Assembly: GCA_945947905.1 (NCBI GenBank)
Contig: CAMEZO010000003.1
Location: forward strand, 1-59,326
Direction of reading: 5' to 3'
Length of the DNA: 59,326 nt
Origin: an uncultured bacterium
GTDB lineage: Bacteria > Verrucomicrobiota > Verrucomicrobiia > Verrucomicrobiales > Akkermansiaceae
The notes under the pieces: model-generated
Told to the model about the DNA's origin: nothing
Seen by the model: only the letters and a program-made list of their open reading frames with translations
Database searches by the model: none
Translations under genes and position numbers: made by a program
Part shown: piece by piece, positions 3,277 through 43,075 of the stretch
How the letters are laid out: each line of letters opens with the position of its first letter
How positions within the stretch are numbered: position 1 is the first letter of the stretch

Positions 3277-3747
3277 ATGTTCCACATCGTCCTCTACCAC
3301 CCGGAGATCCCCCACAACACCGGCGCCGCCGGCAGGCTGGCCGTGGCTACCCAATCCCGCCTGCACCTCATCCGCCCCCTCGGTTTCAGCCTGGATGATA
3401 AGCACGTACGCCGCTGCGGGTTGGATTACTGGCAATATGTGGACCTGCATCTGTGGGACAGCTTGGAGGAACTGACCGCCGCCGCGACACCCGGGGCGCG
3501 CTTCTGGTACCTCTCCACCAAGGCACGCCATGGCATCTGGGAGCCGAGCCTGCCCCTGCGAGACGGAGATTATCTCGTCTTCGGGCCGGAGACGAAAGGG
3601 CTGCCGCAGAGCTTTCTGGAGGCGCACCCGGATACGGCCCTGCGCATCCCCATGCCCGGGGAGCACTCCCGCTCCCTCAACCTCTCCACCTCCATCGCCA
3701 TTGTCCTCTACGAGGGACTGCGGCGCACCCTTTCTGCCGGCTCATGA
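3277..3747 (+). CDS. trmL: tRNA (cytidine/uridine-34-2'-O)-methyltransferase TrmL
   Basis: A 156-residue SPOUT-class RNA methyltransferase expected to methylate the ribose 2'-OH at the wobble base of tRNA-Leu isoacceptors, using S-adenosylmethionine. The start H-I-V-L-Y-H-P-E-I-P-H-N-T-G, the F-G-P-E-T-K-G-L-P motif and the C-terminal knot L-N-L-S-T-S-I-A-I-V-L-Y-E match TrmL throughout, and the length is normal for the family. It begins 6 nt after the sugar transferase gene, and its stop overlaps the start of the next gene (ATGATGA), so the three are probably one transcript. Confidence 0.95.
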   Translation: MFHIVLYHPEIPHNTGAAGRLAVATQSRLHLIRPLGFSLDDKHVRRCGLDYWQYVDLHLWDSLEELTAAATPGARFWYLSTKARHGIWEPSLPLRDGDYLVFGPETKGLPQSFLEAHPDTALRIPMPGEHSRSLNLSTSIAIVLYEGLRRTLSAGS

Positions 3748-38250: not shown

Positions 38251-40974
38251 ATGGCAGTCACACTGGGACAGAACGAAATCAGCGCGAGGGCGGCGAAGTT
38301 TGCCGAGGAGTGGAAGGACACGGAGCGCGAGGAGGCAGAGGCGCAGTCCTTCCTCATCGACTTCTTCGGCGTGCTGGGGGTCAGCCGCAAGCGGGTGGCC
38401 ATCTTCGAGCACAAGGTGCAGTGCGCGGACGGCAGCAAGGGGTACATCGACCTGTTCTGGAAGGGCCACATCCTCATCGAGATGAAGTCCCGCGGCAAGG
38501 ACCTGGCCAAGGCCTACGAGCAGGCCAAGCGCTATGCGGACACGCTCGCGCCGCACGAGTTCCCGCACGGCATCCTGGTCTGCGATTTCGAGAACTGGCA
38601 CTACTACGACCTGGATCACGACGCGCAGTGCACCCGCTTCCGCCTGGCGGAGCTGCCGCAGTTCATCCACCTCTTCCACTACCTGGCCGGCTACGAGCAG
38701 CGCGAGTACCAGGAGGAGGACCCCGTGAACGTGCAGGCGGCGGAGCTGCTCGGCAAGCTGCACGACCGCCTGAAGGCCATCGGCTATGTGGGCCACCCGC
38801 TGGAGGTCTACCTAGTGCGCCTGCTCTTCTGCCTGTTCGCGGAGGATACGGGTATCTTCCGCAAGGACGCTTTCCACCGCTTCCTGCTGGACTGCACCTC
38901 CGAGGACGGGCGCGATCTGGCGGCGCGCCTGGCGGAGCTTTTCCAGACCCTCAACACCCCGGAGGCGCAGCGGCTCTGCCTGCGGGATGCCGCGGTGAAT
39001 GATTTCCCCTATGTGAACGGCGGGCTGTTCGCGGAGTTCCTGCCCATGCCCGCCTTCGATACGGCCATGCGCTCGGCCCTGCTGGACTGCTGTGCGCTGG
39101 ATTGGGGCCGCATTTCCCCCGCCATCTTCGGCTCCATGTTCCAGAGCGTCATGAATGCGGAGGAGCGCCGCGCCCTCGGTGCCCACTACACCAGCGAGCG
39201 CAACATCCTCAAGCTCATCAACCCCCTGTTCATGGACGCCCTGCGGGAGGAGTTCGCCGCCCTGCAACATGATAAATCGAACCGCAAGATCACCCGCCTG
39301 CAGGCCTTCCACCGCAAGCTCGCCTCCCTCACCTTCCTGGACCCCGCCTGCGGCTGCGGTAACTTCCTCATTATCGCCTACCGCGAGCTCCGCCGCCTCG
39401 AGCTGTCCCTCATCGCCGAGCTCGAGCAATGCCAAGAAACCGCCGGCACCGCCTGGCTCCTCTCCGCCAACGATGTCTGCCTCGTCAATGTCAACCAATT
39501 CTACGGCATCGAGCTGGAGGAATTCCCCGCCCAAATCGCCCAGGTCGCCATGTGGCTCATGGACCACCTCATGAACATCGAGGCCGGTAACCACTTCGGT
39601 GTGGCCTACGCCCGCATCCCCCTCACCGCCTCCGCCACCATCGTCCGCGGCAACGCCCTGCGGATTGACTGGGAATCCGTCGTGCCTAAGGAGAAGCTCA
39701 GCTACATTATGGGCAACCCGCCGTTTATCGGACACAATGTGAGAAGTGATGCTCAGAAATCTGACATGGAGCAAGTGTTCGGCAAAATCAAAACGGATAA
39801 GATTGACTATGTAGCCTGTTGGTTCTGGAAGGCAGTCCGGTACATGAAAGGCGCCGATACCCGCACGGCTTTTGTCGCGACCAATTCCGTGTGCCAGGGT
39901 GTTTCCGTCGGCACGCTGTGGAAGCATGTCTTTGACTCGGGGTTCCATATAGATTTTGGCTGGTCCACCTTCATTTGGGATAACGAAGCCGCAGGTAAAG
40001 CTCACGTTCATGTCGTCATTGTGGGATTCTCCGAGAATCCTAAACAGGAAAAAGTAAGACTTTATACGGAAAACTCGGTAACGGTGTGCAACAACATTAA
40101 TGCTTATTTGATAGATGCACCGGATGTATTTCCCGATCGTCGTACAGCTCCGCTGTCAAATGTACCCCGGATACGGGTCGGCAGTCTGCCTCGTTCCTCG
40201 GCCTTTACGGTGACAGCAGAAGAAAAGCCCTTGTTCATTGCGGACAATCCCCTTTGCGAAAAATGGATAAAACCATATATAGGCTCTGATGAATTTATCA
40301 AGGGGAGAGAGCGATATTGCTTATGGATGAAAGGGGCTGATATTAAGGAATTGAGGTCTTGCAAAATGGTGATGGAGAGAATTGAGCAGGTACGGCAGGC
40401 GAGACTTGCAAGCCCGGCAGCAACGACCAGACGAACAGCAGAAACGCCGACGCTCTTCGCAGTAGATGCCCAGCCGGAATCGAATTATCTCATCATTCCG
40501 CAGGTTTCGTCTGAAAGACGCAAATACATACCTATCGGATTCATGTCGCCCGATGTGATTGCCAGCAATCTCGTGTTTGTTGTTCCCGATGCGACTCTGT
40601 ATCACTTTGGTGTTCTGACATCAGCGATGCACAATGCATGGGTACATGCAGTTGCAGGGAGACTGGAAATGCGATATCGTTATGGCGGCGATTTAGTTTA
40701 TAACAACTTCCCCTGGCCGGAATGCACGGAGGCGCAGCAAGAGAAGATCGCGGAGTTGGCTCAGGGCGTTCTGGATGCCCGCGCCCTGTACCCGGACAGC
40801 AGCTTGGCCGACCTCTACGACCCCCTGACCATGCCGCCCGAGCTGGTAGCAGCCCACCGCAAGCTGGACAGCGCCGTGGAGAAAGCCTACGGCCGCAAGT
40901 TCACGGACGACGCCGAACGCGTCGCCTTCCTCTTCGAGAAATACAGCGAACTCACACAGACCAAACCGCAGTAA
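38251..40974 (+). CDS. MmeI-like restriction-modification enzyme (type IIL/IIG)
   Basis: A 907-residue single-chain restriction enzyme and adenine methyltransferase. The N-terminal PD-(D/E)xK nuclease shows D67, E77 and K79 in Y-I-D-L-F-W and I-E-M-K-S. A helical linker follows. The methyltransferase has motif I F-L-D-P-A-C-G-C-G-N-F near 363 and motif IV G-N-P-P-F near 490. Target recognition lies in the C-terminal half. In this family one recognition domain sets specificity for both cutting and methylation. Codons from about 39690 to 40715 are clearly A+T-richer than the rest, which suggests replacement of the recognition domain by recombination. The start matches the promoter. Confidence 0.9.
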   Translation: MAVTLGQNEISARAAKFAEEWKDTEREEAEAQSFLIDFFGVLGVSRKRVAIFEHKVQCADGSKGYIDLFWKGHILIEMKSRGKDLAKAYEQAKRYADTLAPHEFPHGILVCDFENWHYYDLDHDAQCTRFRLAELPQFIHLFHYLAGYEQREYQEEDPVNVQAAELLGKLHDRLKAIGYVGHPLEVYLVRLLFCLFAEDTGIFRKDAFHRFLLDCTSEDGRDLAARLAELFQTLNTPEAQRLCLRDAAVNDFPYVNGGLFAEFLPMPAFDTAMRSALLDCCALDWGRISPAIFGSMFQSVMNAEERRALGAHYTSERNILKLINPLFMDALREEFAALQHDKSNRKITRLQAFHRKLASLTFLDPACGCGNFLIIAYRELRRLELSLIAELEQCQETAGTAWLLSANDVCLVNVNQFYGIELEEFPAQIAQVAMWLMDHLMNIEAGNHFGVAYARIPLTASATIVRGNALRIDWESVVPKEKLSYIMGNPPFIGHNVRSDAQKSDMEQVFGKIKTDKIDYVACWFWKAVRYMKGADTRTAFVATNSVCQGVSVGTLWKHVFDSGFHIDFGWSTFIWDNEAAGKAHVHVVIVGFSENPKQEKVRLYTENSVTVCNNINAYLIDAPDVFPDRRTAPLSNVPRIRVGSLPRSSAFTVTAEEKPLFIADNPLCEKWIKPYIGSDEFIKGRERYCLWMKGADIKELRSCKMVMERIEQVRQARLASPAATTRRTAETPTLFAVDAQPESNYLIIPQVSSERRKYIPIGFMSPDVIASNLVFVVPDATLYHFGVLTSAMHNAWVHAVAGRLEMRYRYGGDLVYNNFPWPECTEAQQEKIAELAQGVLDARALYPDSSLADLYDPLTMPPELVAAHRKLDSAVEKAYGRKFTDDAERVAFLFEKYSELTQTKPQ

Positions 40975-41052
40975 CCCCCACTCACCGACCGCACAGCCCC
41001 GACAAAAGGCACCTTACCGCAAAAGAGTCTTGACTTTTTTCAAAAAAATGTC
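40975..41052. other. Spacer before the NYN unit
   Basis: It contains an extra TTGACT at 41030-41035, 23 bp before the -35 box of the NYN promoter, followed by a T6CA7 stretch. I see no gene and no clear terminator for the upstream gene. Confidence 0.45.
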
Positions 41053-41157
41053 TTGACTTTTCCTCCCGCTTCTTGTAAACTTCTCCTCGTCAGGAGGTAA
41101 ACTCCGAACCCTTATCCGCCCCTGTTAGTAATTCTCCCGCGATCTGGGAAGTTTATG
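41051..41157 (+). repeat. Promoter-leader direct repeat, copy 1
   Basis: This 107-bp sequence matches 41967-42073 at 104 positions. It runs from the -35 box through the leader to an ATG. Two of the three differences lie between the -10 box and the GGAGG motif and one at its edge; copy 1 can pair CTCCT with AGGAG and copy 2 CCTCC with GGAGG. Confidence 0.9.
41053..41081 (+). promoter_or_regulatory. Promoter of the NYN leader RNA
   Basis: TTGACT (41053-41058), 17 bp, TAAACT (41076-41081). The predicted RNA starts near 41088. Confidence 0.8.
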
Positions 41158-41176
41158 AAAGCAGGGGCTTTTTTTG
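41088..41176 (+). ncRNA. Structured leader or small RNA ending in an intrinsic terminator
   Basis: The predicted RNA is about 88 nt. It can form GGAG-GTAAA-CTCC (41093-41105), an inner TCCC/GGGA hairpin (41135-41149) and a closing stem GCCCCTG (41118-41124) with CAGGGGC (41162-41168), followed by seven T (41169-41175). That is a terminator placed just before the NYN gene, so the RNA may act as an attenuator, a riboswitch or an independent small RNA. It matches no riboswitch class I can name. Confidence 0.6.
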
Positions 41177-41181
41177 AATGT

Positions 41182-41865
41182 ATGATTAGGACCGCTATTT
41201 TGGTGGACGGTGGGTTTTACCGTCGAAAGATGAAGAAGAGGCAGGACAGTCCGGAGGAGGCAGCTAATACACTCTTTCAGTATTGCCTTAAAATACTCCA
41301 TTCTTTTAAGAATGAGGAATGCTTTCTATACCGCGTTCTGTACTACGACTGCAAACCATCCCAAAAGATAGTTTATCACCCGCTCTTGAAGAAGACCATT
41401 AATTTGGGAAAGGAACCACAGTTTCAATGGAATACCGCCTTCCTGAACGCGCTTTGCACCAAGCGTAAGTTTGCGCTGCGATTAGGGAAACTGGCTGATG
41501 AGCAGGCGCGATATCTCTTAAGTCCGGATGCAACTAAGGATTTACTGAATGGAAAACGGACGATTGATGACCTCACCGAAAGAGATTTCTCGATCTCAAT
41601 CAAGCAGAAGGGTGTCGATACCCGCATCGGCATTGATATTGTTGCAATGGCCTTAAAACATCAGGTTGACAGAATCATCCTAATTGCCGGAGATAGCGAT
41701 TTTGTTCCCGCTGCAAAATTTGCGAGGCGGGAGGGTATAGACATGATCCTCGATCCCATGGATTCACCTATCAAGCCTGAACTCAGTGAGCACATTGACG
41801 GACTAAAAACAGTTATTCATAATTTCTCAACAAAACGGACTGATTCCTCCGACGAGGAGGAATAA
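41182..41865 (+). CDS. NYN-domain (LabA/DUF88-like) putative RNase
   Basis: A 227-residue protein of the NYN (PIN-like) family, which includes metal-dependent RNases. It begins A-I-L-V-D-G-G-F with the first catalytic Asp (D9), has K-G-V-D-T-R-I-G-I-D-I-V-A-M with the second acidic pair, and A-G-D-S-D-F-V-P-A-A-K-F-A with the third. The tail is acidic (S-S-D-E-E-E). An in-frame ATG at 41155 would add nine residues but lies inside the leader terminator stem, so ATG 41182 is preferred. The gene sits between two copies of its own promoter and leader and has its own terminator. The low G+C content differs from the housekeeping genes. Confidence 0.82.
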   Translation: MIRTAILVDGGFYRRKMKKRQDSPEEAANTLFQYCLKILHSFKNEECFLYRVLYYDCKPSQKIVYHPLLKKTINLGKEPQFQWNTAFLNALCTKRKFALRLGKLADEQARYLLSPDATKDLLNGKRTIDDLTERDFSISIKQKGVDTRIGIDIVAMALKHQVDRIILIAGDSDFVPAAKFARREGIDMILDPMDSPIKPELSEHIDGLKTVIHNFSTKRTDSSDEEE

Positions 41866-41879
41866 TGCATAGTATATCC

Positions 41880-41922
41880 CTTAGTCCTCCTTGGCTGAAC
41901 ATACCGGGGAGGCTAAGTTTTT
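41880..41922 (+). terminator. Terminator of the NYN gene
   Basis: CTTAG-T-CCTCC (41880-41890) pairs with GGAGG-CTAAG (41908-41917) with one bulge, followed by five T. It lies 14 nt after the stop. Confidence 0.8.
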
Positions 41923-41966
41923 CCTTGCAACGGTGGAGTCCGGGTTCAAAAAACTCTCGAAAAAAG

Positions 41967-42073
41967 TCTTGACTTTTCCTCCCGCTTCTTGTAAACTCCT
42001 CCACATCAGGAGGTAAACTCCGAACCCTTATCCGCCCCTGTTAGTAATTCTCCCGCGATCTGGGAAGTTTATG
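41967..42073 (+). repeat. Promoter-leader direct repeat, copy 2
   Basis: This is the second copy of the 107-bp unit. Identity ends exactly at the ATG (42071-42073); what follows is not the terminator arm CAGGGGC-T7 of copy 1 but CGGCTTTTTGG and then a palindromic repeat. No NYN gene follows, so the copy is an orphan promoter and leader. Confidence 0.9.
41969..41997 (+). promoter_or_regulatory. Promoter of the orphan leader copy
   Basis: TTGACT (41969-41974), 17 bp, TAAACT (41992-41997), identical to the NYN promoter boxes. Confidence 0.75.
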
Positions 42074-42080
42074 CGGCTTT

Positions 42081-42190
42081 TTGGCAGGAAGTCTGTGCCG
42101 AGCTAAGCACGCCGCAAACTCTCCAAAAATTCTCTTTATTCCGCGGTCCTCAACCATCTCGCCCTCTACCGCCCCGGCGGTGTGAAGTCT
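42081..42190 (-). repeat. Palindromic interspersed element, half copy B
   Basis: Read on the minus strand it is one arm unit: GAGACTTCACACCGCCGG, a GCGGAATAAAGAGAATTTT core, TGCTTAGCTCGG and a closing AGACTTCCTGCC. The other half is missing. It abuts the orphan leader copy. Confidence 0.65.
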
Positions 42191-42262
42191 CGCCCGGGCT
42201 TCGCACGGCCTGTATCCTTCCCTTCCTCTGCGGGTCAGCTTCCATTGAGTGTTCTTTGCAGG
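42187..42262 (+). repeat. Flank repeat shared with 42943-43016
   Basis: About 75 bp beyond the element end recur after element C. The common core is CGGGCTTCGCACGG, then ATCCTTCCCTTCCTCTGCG and TTGAGTGTT. The repeat therefore extends past the terminal inverted repeat. Confidence 0.6.
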
Positions 42263-42280
42263 GCTATTCAGAAAAATGCC

Positions 42281-42309
42281 TTGACATTTCCCAAGGTATC
42301 TCCCATAAT
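42281..42309 (+). promoter_or_regulatory. Promoter of a small-RNA-like unit
   Basis: TTGACA (42281-42286), 17 bp, CATAAT (42304-42309). The predicted RNA starts near 42316. Confidence 0.75.
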
Positions 42310-42315
42310 GGGGGC

Positions 42316-42378
42316 ACGTAAGCCGCTTCGCATCGTTCGAAGCTCCCTGCTCAGGTGCGTCCGGGCGGGGCTTTTTAA
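42316..42378 (+). ncRNA. Possible small RNA with intrinsic terminator
   Basis: A 60-nt predicted RNA with a hairpin GCTTCG (42325-42330)/CGAAGC (42338-42343). AGCTCC (42341-42346) could alternatively pair with GGGGCT near 42367-42372 before the run of five T (42372-42376). It is not similar in sequence to the NYN leader but has the same promoter-RNA-terminator layout. It may also be the leader of the 55-codon gene. Confidence 0.5.
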
Positions 42379-42411: not shown

Positions 42412-42439
42412 TTGACAAATAATACCAGTGTGATATACT
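42412..42439 (+). promoter_or_regulatory. Promoter of the 55-codon gene
   Basis: TTGACA (42412-42417), 16 bp, TATACT (42434-42439) preceded by TGA. The predicted transcription start is about nine nt before ATG 42455. Confidence 0.75.
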
Positions 42440-42454
42440 CTCTCGTGCGAGCTT

Positions 42455-42622
42455 ATGACAACGCTTGAGACCATAGAAGCCATGGATGAACAGTCCTACG
42501 TGGAGATTTCTTGTCTCCTCAGTCACGGGAACGTCACCTTACAGAACGGGGGCATCCTGACGGAGAAGGATTTTGATGCACTTCTGGATATTGCCCTCAG
42601 TACAGAACTCGGGGAGAACTGA
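42455..42622 (+). CDS. Small acidic protein, 55 residues, unknown
   Basis: A 55-residue open frame directly behind a good promoter. The product begins M-T-T-L-E-T-I-E-A-M-D-E, has a central S-H-G-N-V-T-L-Q-N-G-G and ends D-I-A-L-S-T-E-L-G-E-N. It is acidic, has one Cys and no membrane segment. I do not recognise a family. Size, acidity and position beside a restriction enzyme and an RNase-like gene would fit an antitoxin, an anti-restriction or a control protein, but nothing in the sequence shows this. Confidence 0.55.
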   Translation: MTTLETIEAMDEQSYVEISCLLSHGNVTLQNGGILTEKDFDALLDIALSTELGEN

Positions 42623-42667: not shown

Positions 42668-42946
42668 GAGACTTCACACCGCCGCAGTAGTAGGGAGCGA
42701 GAAAGTCTGACCGCGGAATGAAAGGATTTTTCGGAGACTGATTGGCCTTCGGAGCTTAGGCAAGGCTTCCGAGCAGATCCGTAGTAGGTGGGCCTCAGAA
42801 TTTTGTCAAAAAACACCGGGGGCCTCCTACTATGAATTTGCCTTGAACTCTTGCCCAGGCTCCGAAGGCCGATCACTTTCCCATCCTTCCGAAAATTCTG
42901 CGCTCCGAAAACTTCACCTACCTCCCACCCCGGCGGCAGGAAGTCT
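42668..42946 (+). repeat. Palindromic interspersed element, full copy C
   Basis: A 279-bp element bounded by GAGACTTCACACCGCCGC at the left and the complement of AGACTTCCTGCCGCCGGG at the right. The arms pair: CGGAATGAAAGGATTTTTCG against its near-complement near 42893-42910, and GGCCTTCGGAGCTT against AGGCTCCGAAGGCC. The centre contains CCTACTATGAATTTGCC, as in copy A. Confidence 0.75.
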
Positions 42947-43016
42947 GCACCGGGCTTCGCACGGCTTGCATCCTTCCCTTCCTCTGCGGTCAGACTCCTT
43001 TGAGTGTTCCCTACAA
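42943..43016 (+). repeat. Flank repeat shared with 42187-42262
   Basis: This is the second copy of the sequence that follows half element B. It ends about 60 bp before the promoter of the Ppx/GppA-like gene. Confidence 0.6.
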
Positions 43017-43075
43017 GTCTACCTTTCTTTCGTCCGCGTCTCCGTTTCTCGCGGGGGCGCAGCCGCATTTGCTGC

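Follow-up and report, generated by a model that had tools for sequence, protein, structure and literature searches.

The 59,326-nucleotide stretch of Akkermansia DNA analysed here (the window; contig CAMEZO010000003.1, from an uncultured member of the Akkermansiaceae) holds a gene for an NYN-domain protein between two near-identical promoter-leader copies, the first of which ends in a terminator just before the gene. This raises the question of what a leader that stops transcription short of a putative nuclease is for. A preliminary description of the locus proposed that the leader RNA controls the NYN protein or is its substrate or antidote, in an arrangement recalling type III toxin-antitoxin loci and with the second copy acting in trans, and it suggested looking for the leader upstream of related NYN genes and for covariation in its stems.

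The NYN locus in the window

The features of the locus are collected in Table 1. The direct repeat (41044-41157 / 41960-42073) spans 114 nt at 96% identity and is thus larger than the 107-bp promoter-leader unit first recognized, within which we also count 3 mismatches (104/107 identical); a promoter scan finds the same TTGACT-17-TAAACT promoter in both copies. From copy 1 transcription would start near 41088, and the predicted transcript is a two-hairpin RNA of ~85 nt. The copy closes as originally described, with a 7-bp GCCCCTG/CAGGGGC stem and T7 (41118-41175) that end 6 nt 5' of the ATG at 41182, and its leader folds better than shuffled sequences (z = -3.1). A genome search finds the leader only twice in the source genome, whose closest named relatives are Akkermansia MAGs, and Rfam yields no match on the window at the gathering threshold and only chance matches below it. 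The repeat is more than a promoter unit: at its core lies a conserved RNA family. An in-frame ATG upstream of the gene start, at 41155, was considered as the start of a leader ORF and rejected, as it lies inside the conserved internal-loop strand and its frame is lost in relatives.

Table 1. Features of the NYN locus and its upstream neighbour in the window.
Feature	Position	Strand	Evidence or remarks
MmeI-type (type IIL) restriction-modification enzyme, neighbour	38251..40974	+	all five MmeI Pfam domains; context only
Copy 1 sigma-70 promoter, TTGACT-17-TAAACT	41053..41081	+	promoter scan
Leader RNA 5' stem-loop, GGAG/CUCC	41089..41109	+	folding
Conserved RNA element of copy 1, intrinsic terminator	41111..41176	+	R1 59.4 bits, E 2.3e-15 (rough); covariation on alignment A2
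Copy 1 outer stem	41117-41125/41161-41169	+	
Copy 1 internal loop	AGUA 41127-41130 / GAA 41157-41159	+	
Copy 1 inner stem	AUUCUCCC 41131-41138, 3' arm within 41146-41156	+	
Copy 1 7-nt loop, GCGAUCU	41139-41145	+	
Copy 1 T-run	41169-41175	+	
NYN-domain nuclease gene, 227 aa	41182..41865	+	phrog_5783 family; invariant D9, D146, D152, D171, D173
Probable NYN-gene terminator hairpin (CTTAGTCCTCC...GGAGGCTAAG, T5)	41887..41922	+	by eye
Promoter-leader copy 2 (96% identity with 41044-41157)	41960..42073	+	repeat search, promoter scan; promoter 41969-41997 intact
Damaged RNA element of copy 2	42028..42084	+	R1 13.7 bits, E 0.38 (rough); fold z +0.83

Copy 2 lacks AAAGCAGG and with it the outer stem's 3' arm and the GAA strand of the internal loop, in agreement with the terminator arm earlier reported as lost. 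The family model described below scores copy 1, which is one of its 62 seed sequences, at 59.4 bits (E 2e-15) and copy 2 at 13.7 bits (E 0.38), with E-values that are rough, and copy 2 folds no better than its shuffles. The copy is damaged and probably inert, and the trans action first proposed for it is not supported, because neither the outer stem nor the conserved internal loop survives.

The NYN protein matches PF01936 (E 1.2e-9; 39.2 bits against a curated cut-off of 24.2), the sole Pfam family matched, and homologues back the start of the gene (MIRTAILVDGG against MIKTAILVDGG). Its family is annotated in PHROG as of unknown function, and we found nothing on phrog_5783 in the open-access literature. 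Five aspartates are invariant across 69 sequences (Table 1), and on this comparison the acidic residues expected of the NYN metal site are present. A PDB sequence search with the protein returned no match, and plain Foldseek on the AlphaFold model (pLDDT 92) gave nothing meaningful, the top rows having a TM of about 0.2; structural realignment brought out NYN domains as the nearest solved folds (MARF1 NYN, Z 16.4; VPA0982, Z 16.1), followed by the phage T5 flap endonuclease at a Z of about 10. The library of antiphage models holds only distant NYN models. The CRISPR-associated NYN protein of Bacteroides fragilis is a Mn-dependent, sequence-nonspecific ssRNA nuclease (PMC11346440), and by analogy the window protein is likely to be an RNase. 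Both that protein and the NYN domain of MARF1 share the fold of the window protein but are of a different family and context, with no leader RNA reported there. The gene probably also has the terminator of its own that had been ascribed to it, a hairpin with T5 visible by eye that the terminator scan does not list because its loop is longer than 8.

Other small elements lie beyond the second copy. At 42281-42376 a promoter (TTGACA-17-CATAAT, 11/12) has a hairpin rich in G+C and a T-run no more than about 70 nt behind it; this element is unrelated to the NYN leader and is possibly a second small RNA. The stretch 42412-42622 has an extended -10 promoter (TTGACA-16-TATACT, preceded by TG) upstream of a 55-aa ORF without a Pfam match. 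The ORF is flanked by diverged intergenic direct repeats at 42083-42266 and 42922-43021 (68 nt at 85%, 29 nt at 83% and 34 nt at 76%), and there is a 35-nt inverted repeat at 42157-42191 / 42668-42702.

A conserved and covarying RNA motif

Alignment of 62 leaders (alignment A2), from which the family model R1 was built, defines a motif with an outer 9-bp terminator stem, an AGUA/GAA internal loop, an inner stem, a 7-nt loop and a T-run. The covariation suggested for the stems is present: all 17 of the nested pairs examined show compensatory changes across the 62 sequences, with a score of 0.633 against 0.245 when shuffled and at most 0.195 for slid controls. The inner-stem pair 23-49, for example, is GC in 24 sequences, UA in 18, AU in 7 and CG in 6. 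The outer stem of any terminator covaries by necessity; the inner stem and the unpaired letters are dispensable for termination and yet are conserved and covarying across phyla. The unpaired AGUA is conserved at 81, 89, 100 and 98%, the GA at 85 and 97% and the AU of the loop at 94 and 97%, such that U20 (100%), A21 (98%), A52 (97%) and U37 (97%) are nearly fixed. We take AGUA/GAA to be the consensus sequence of a bulged-G motif (also called loop E or sarcin-ricin), a motif to which proteins often bind. Mimicry of an anticodon loop by the 7-nt loop (ACCAUAA) was considered and rejected, as the anticodon-like positions vary. Upstream of the motif, 28 of 39 loci of the family have a short 5' hairpin with a dG of -2.5 or below, the mean z being -1.7. 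Promoter-like sites precede the RNA at 51 of 83 loci, where shuffled sequence would be expected to give 4.1.

Association of the RNA with NYN genes

By DNA similarity alone the leader is found in 8 further genomes among 193 relatives, all of them Akkermansia and all with the leader directly 5' of NYN or its remains, and every R1 match above 50 bits in the Akkermansia relatives is likewise an NYN locus or what is left of one. Distant NYN homologues carry it too: the hairpin lies 5' of genes whose products are about 40-55% identical, in Clostridia, Actinomycetes, phages and plasmids, and in two MAGs, one of Clostridia (55%) and one of Actinomycetes (49%), it is built in the same way from other letters and in the same place. 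Phage and plasmid NYN loci of Lactococcus, Dorea, Streptococcus, Moraxella, Thermus and Xanthomonas also have it, the Thermus locus sitting inside a BREX cluster.

A profile scan of viral contigs gave 80 NYN loci whose upstream sequences carry the same hairpin. R1 reaches at least 20 bits just 5' of NYN in 73 of the 76 viral loci searched, a count that is partly circular, and matches 5' of NYN in 21 of the 24 outside the model-building set, a count that is not; almost everywhere else within the same loci it stays below 23 bits. The order promoter, RNA, terminator and NYN gene is common to 73/76 of these loci. Among 391 Clostridia genomes, 10 have NYN, nine of them with R1 immediately 5' and the tenth with a matching hairpin by eye. 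An integrase lies downstream of NYN in 9/10 sampled phage loci, the upstream neighbours tested being mostly repressor-type regulators or metalloproteases, and in prophages the gene is usually found between repressor and integrase. Lysogenic accessory genes, for example those for superinfection exclusion, are usually found in this interval.

In Akkermansia, L024 and L025 represent a divergent NYN group without an R1 match; these proteins are 37-40% identical, and the L024 gene lies near an integrase-like gene and is itself preceded by a different hairpin. Similarly, NYN loci of lambdoid E. coli and Proteus phages and of Campylobacter plasmids have hairpins in the same place that R1 does not recognize. 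Such hairpins of other sequence, seen at 2850-3000 in L037 and in L038 and at 2820-2990 in L040 (lambdoid phages of Proteus/E. coli and pTet plasmids of Campylobacter), are possibly diverged forms of the RNA. R1 therefore understates the diversity on the RNA side. The distances of RNA and protein correlate weakly (Mantel r 0.26), which co-inheritance alone explains. One phage contig with the NYN module (L107) also has an Rfam match to the Pistol ribozyme at 414-476 on the minus strand.

The proposal that ties the leader RNA and its terminator to NYN therefore stands as far as the leader is kept 5' of NYN and its stems covary, while the role of the RNA as an antidote is something we infer.

Identity with Rfam TEG147 in Bacillota

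The Rfam model RF03535 (TEG147) matches directly 5' of NYN in L088 (80.9 bits), L073 (58.3 bits) and L087 (56.3 bits), against a threshold of 56.1, and by these model matches the NYN-associated RNA in Bacillota is TEG147. The same model has no match at its gathering threshold on the window copy. It is narrow, leaving the Akkermansia copy unmatched while scoring Bacillota members before NYN at 56-81 bits; its lack of matches in a set of control genomes says nothing either way. The available portions of the literature list Staphylococcus aureus Teg147 among bona fide sRNAs, with a length of 60 nt (PMC5826253), and among the RNAs of genomic islands (PMC3053349), and they describe the Rfam family as one built in a student course (PMC7779021); in those portions no protein partner of Teg147 is named. 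The open-access literature gave no report that pairs NYN with an RNA antitoxin or a type III system, although one may exist that we did not see.

RNA copies without an intact NYN gene

Eight viral contigs carry the RNA with no NYN match in the record, some of these records being fragments. The neighbours of these orphan copies are genes for terminase (L189, L194), scaffold and major head protein (L195), endolysin (L185) and integrase (L182), and a HicB-like gene (L196). In the Clostridia set there are 8 further R1 matches of at least 46 bits without an adjoining NYN, and in 7 Clostridia genomes with such an orphan no NYN was found anywhere in the genome. Sixteen orphans, aligned by fitting to the R1 model, retain the fold and show compensatory changes as a set (0.522 against 0.194), and several have a promoter and a terminator of their own. 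Some look like remnants after loss of NYN, to judge from L199, which retains the first NYN codons, and L196, which has a possible start. HicB-like antitoxin genes adjoin the orphan RNAs of L200, L203 and L196, with profile confirmation in L196 only.

L110 carries two copies, one before NYN and a second (66.7 bits) directly before an integrase gene; in the latter (3438-3560) a ribosome site lies where the NYN start would fall. A near-identical RNA occurs in L196 (8554-8640) with no gene directly behind it.

The converse arrangement is also seen. In several Akkermansia NYN is broken and the RNA intact, and in many E. coli O157:H7 prophages NYN is truncated and the leader, in its diverged lambdoid form, is kept (for example in NZ_CP014314.1 near 3616136, where the leader is intact). 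The RNA thus outlasts broken NYN genes in both, so the expected signature of selection is present. Although the orphan in the window appears inert, the intact orphans elsewhere make trans action of the RNA family plausible.

A proposed RNA/NYN module and its alternatives

In type III systems (ToxIN, AbiQ, CptIN and TenpIN; PMC5086642) a single promoter is likewise followed by an RNA, a Rho-independent terminator and an RNase gene, on mobile elements, and this order, with the NYN gene in the position of the toxin, is found in the window. Type III antitoxins are by definition RNAs of tandem nucleotide repeats (PMC5086642), the repeated unit being a pseudoknot, whereas the RNA family of the window is, to judge from its nested pairs, a covarying hairpin, and a single unit of it stands before NYN both here and in those leaders that were read; the preliminary description had already remarked that its repeats are not tandem. 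Nor is the protein a toxin of the ToxN/AbiQ kind, NYN being its only Pfam match and NYN domains its nearest folds (Z about 16). Because both the repeat and the toxin fold were tested for and are absent, the NYN module is not a classical type III toxin-antitoxin system; what survives of the original comparison is the same order and a resemblance in working, not membership.

A closer likeness is AbiF/RCd22 from a Clostridioides difficile prophage, whose RNA neutralizes the toxin both in cis, through termination, and in trans, through protein binding (PMC12373285). Both systems are prophage-borne, with a promoter, a short structured RNA and a terminator before the gene of an RNase-like toxin, in our case a putative one, which is expressed by read-through. 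AbiF, however, is an Abi_2 protein related to the ancestors of Cas13 and not an NYN nuclease, and RCd22 carries a pair of motifs followed by a terminator distinct from them, whereas here, as far as sequence tells, one motif is itself the terminator. By this analogy, two-step control through termination in cis and binding in trans is the most likely mode. For the orphan RNAs of phages there is a precedent in pseudo-ToxI, an antitoxin mimic carried by a phage (PMC3475682).

We therefore propose, with slightly better than even confidence, a mobile two-component module of an RNA and an NYN RNase in which the RNA would act as an antitoxin in the manner of type III or AbiF/RCd22 systems. A constitutive promoter would give an ~85-nt RNA that begins with the 5' stem-loop, continues through a linker containing a GCUAAU-like motif and closes with the terminator hairpin, in which the AGUA/GAA internal loop is conserved and the apical loop has 7 nt. 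Transcription would mostly end at the hairpin, with occasional read-through giving the NYN ribonuclease; because the protein would be made by such read-through only, the RNA would always be in excess. The protein would recognize the RNA through the internal and apical loops and thereby be kept inactive, such that the RNA limits NYN expression in cis and probably binds NYN in trans. Phage infection would upset the supply of RNA and free NYN, and copies of the RNA without NYN, some of them in phages, could serve as antidotes. We infer binding, toxicity, neutralization and a defensive role for the pair; a part in anti-phage defence is likely because the module sits in prophage lysogeny cassettes, on plasmids and beside restriction and BREX genes. 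The broader proposal, that this is a widespread, so far unrecognized RNA-controlled NYN antiphage module of at least four bacterial phyla, with an antitoxin RNA that is the terminator itself and decoy RNAs carried by competing phages, we put forward only tentatively.

The main rival is an autoregulatory attenuator, in which NYN would bind or cleave its own leader hairpin and so tune read-through, the RNA having no antitoxin role. Some RNases do control their own mRNAs. In favour of this, RNA and terminator are one and the same immediately ahead of the gene, the internal loop shows the conservation expected of a protein site, a terminator hairpin with a protein-binding loop and no tandem repeats is equally expected, and Rfam classes TEG147 as Cis-reg. 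This explanation fits the position of the terminator equally well but leaves the orphans unexplained, several of which have their own promoter and terminator and precede no NYN, and it sits poorly with the intact RNA beside broken NYN genes; we judge it unlikely, if far from negligible. Less probable again is a conditional attenuator, by which a phage or host factor or a ligand would cause read-through and turn on NYN, and which would also control integrase or other genes. The copy before the L110 integrase, with its ribosome site, and the conserved terminator geometry speak for it; against it, no alternative anti-terminator fold is seen, most orphans are misplaced for gene control and the outer-stem letters vary freely, which is hard to square with a competing anti-terminator pairing. 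That the RNA is a cofactor or guide steering the nuclease to targets might be suggested by the near-obligate pairing of one RNA with one nuclease across phyla, but there is no variable spacer-like segment, the apical and internal loops are nearly invariant and the variation of the stems is explained by pairing, which makes a guide very improbable. Finally, intrinsic terminators are common and their outer stems covary in any case, but a mere strong terminator insulating NYN, associated with it by chance or lineage, is scarcely credible given the conservation of inner stem and unpaired loop letters that termination does not need and the low R1 scores elsewhere in the same loci.

If the proposed antitoxin module is correct, it would give a function and a partner to Teg147, an expressed and so far unexplained sRNA of S. 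aureus, and would add a further nuclease fold, after those of ToxN and AbiF, to the RNase modules neutralized by RNA. The design would be very economical, the antidote being the terminator. The stand-alone RNAs of competing phages would be the natural counterpart of pseudo-ToxI, and with RNA copies lying in phage structural and lysis modules, decoy counter-defence can be tested directly in laboratory systems.
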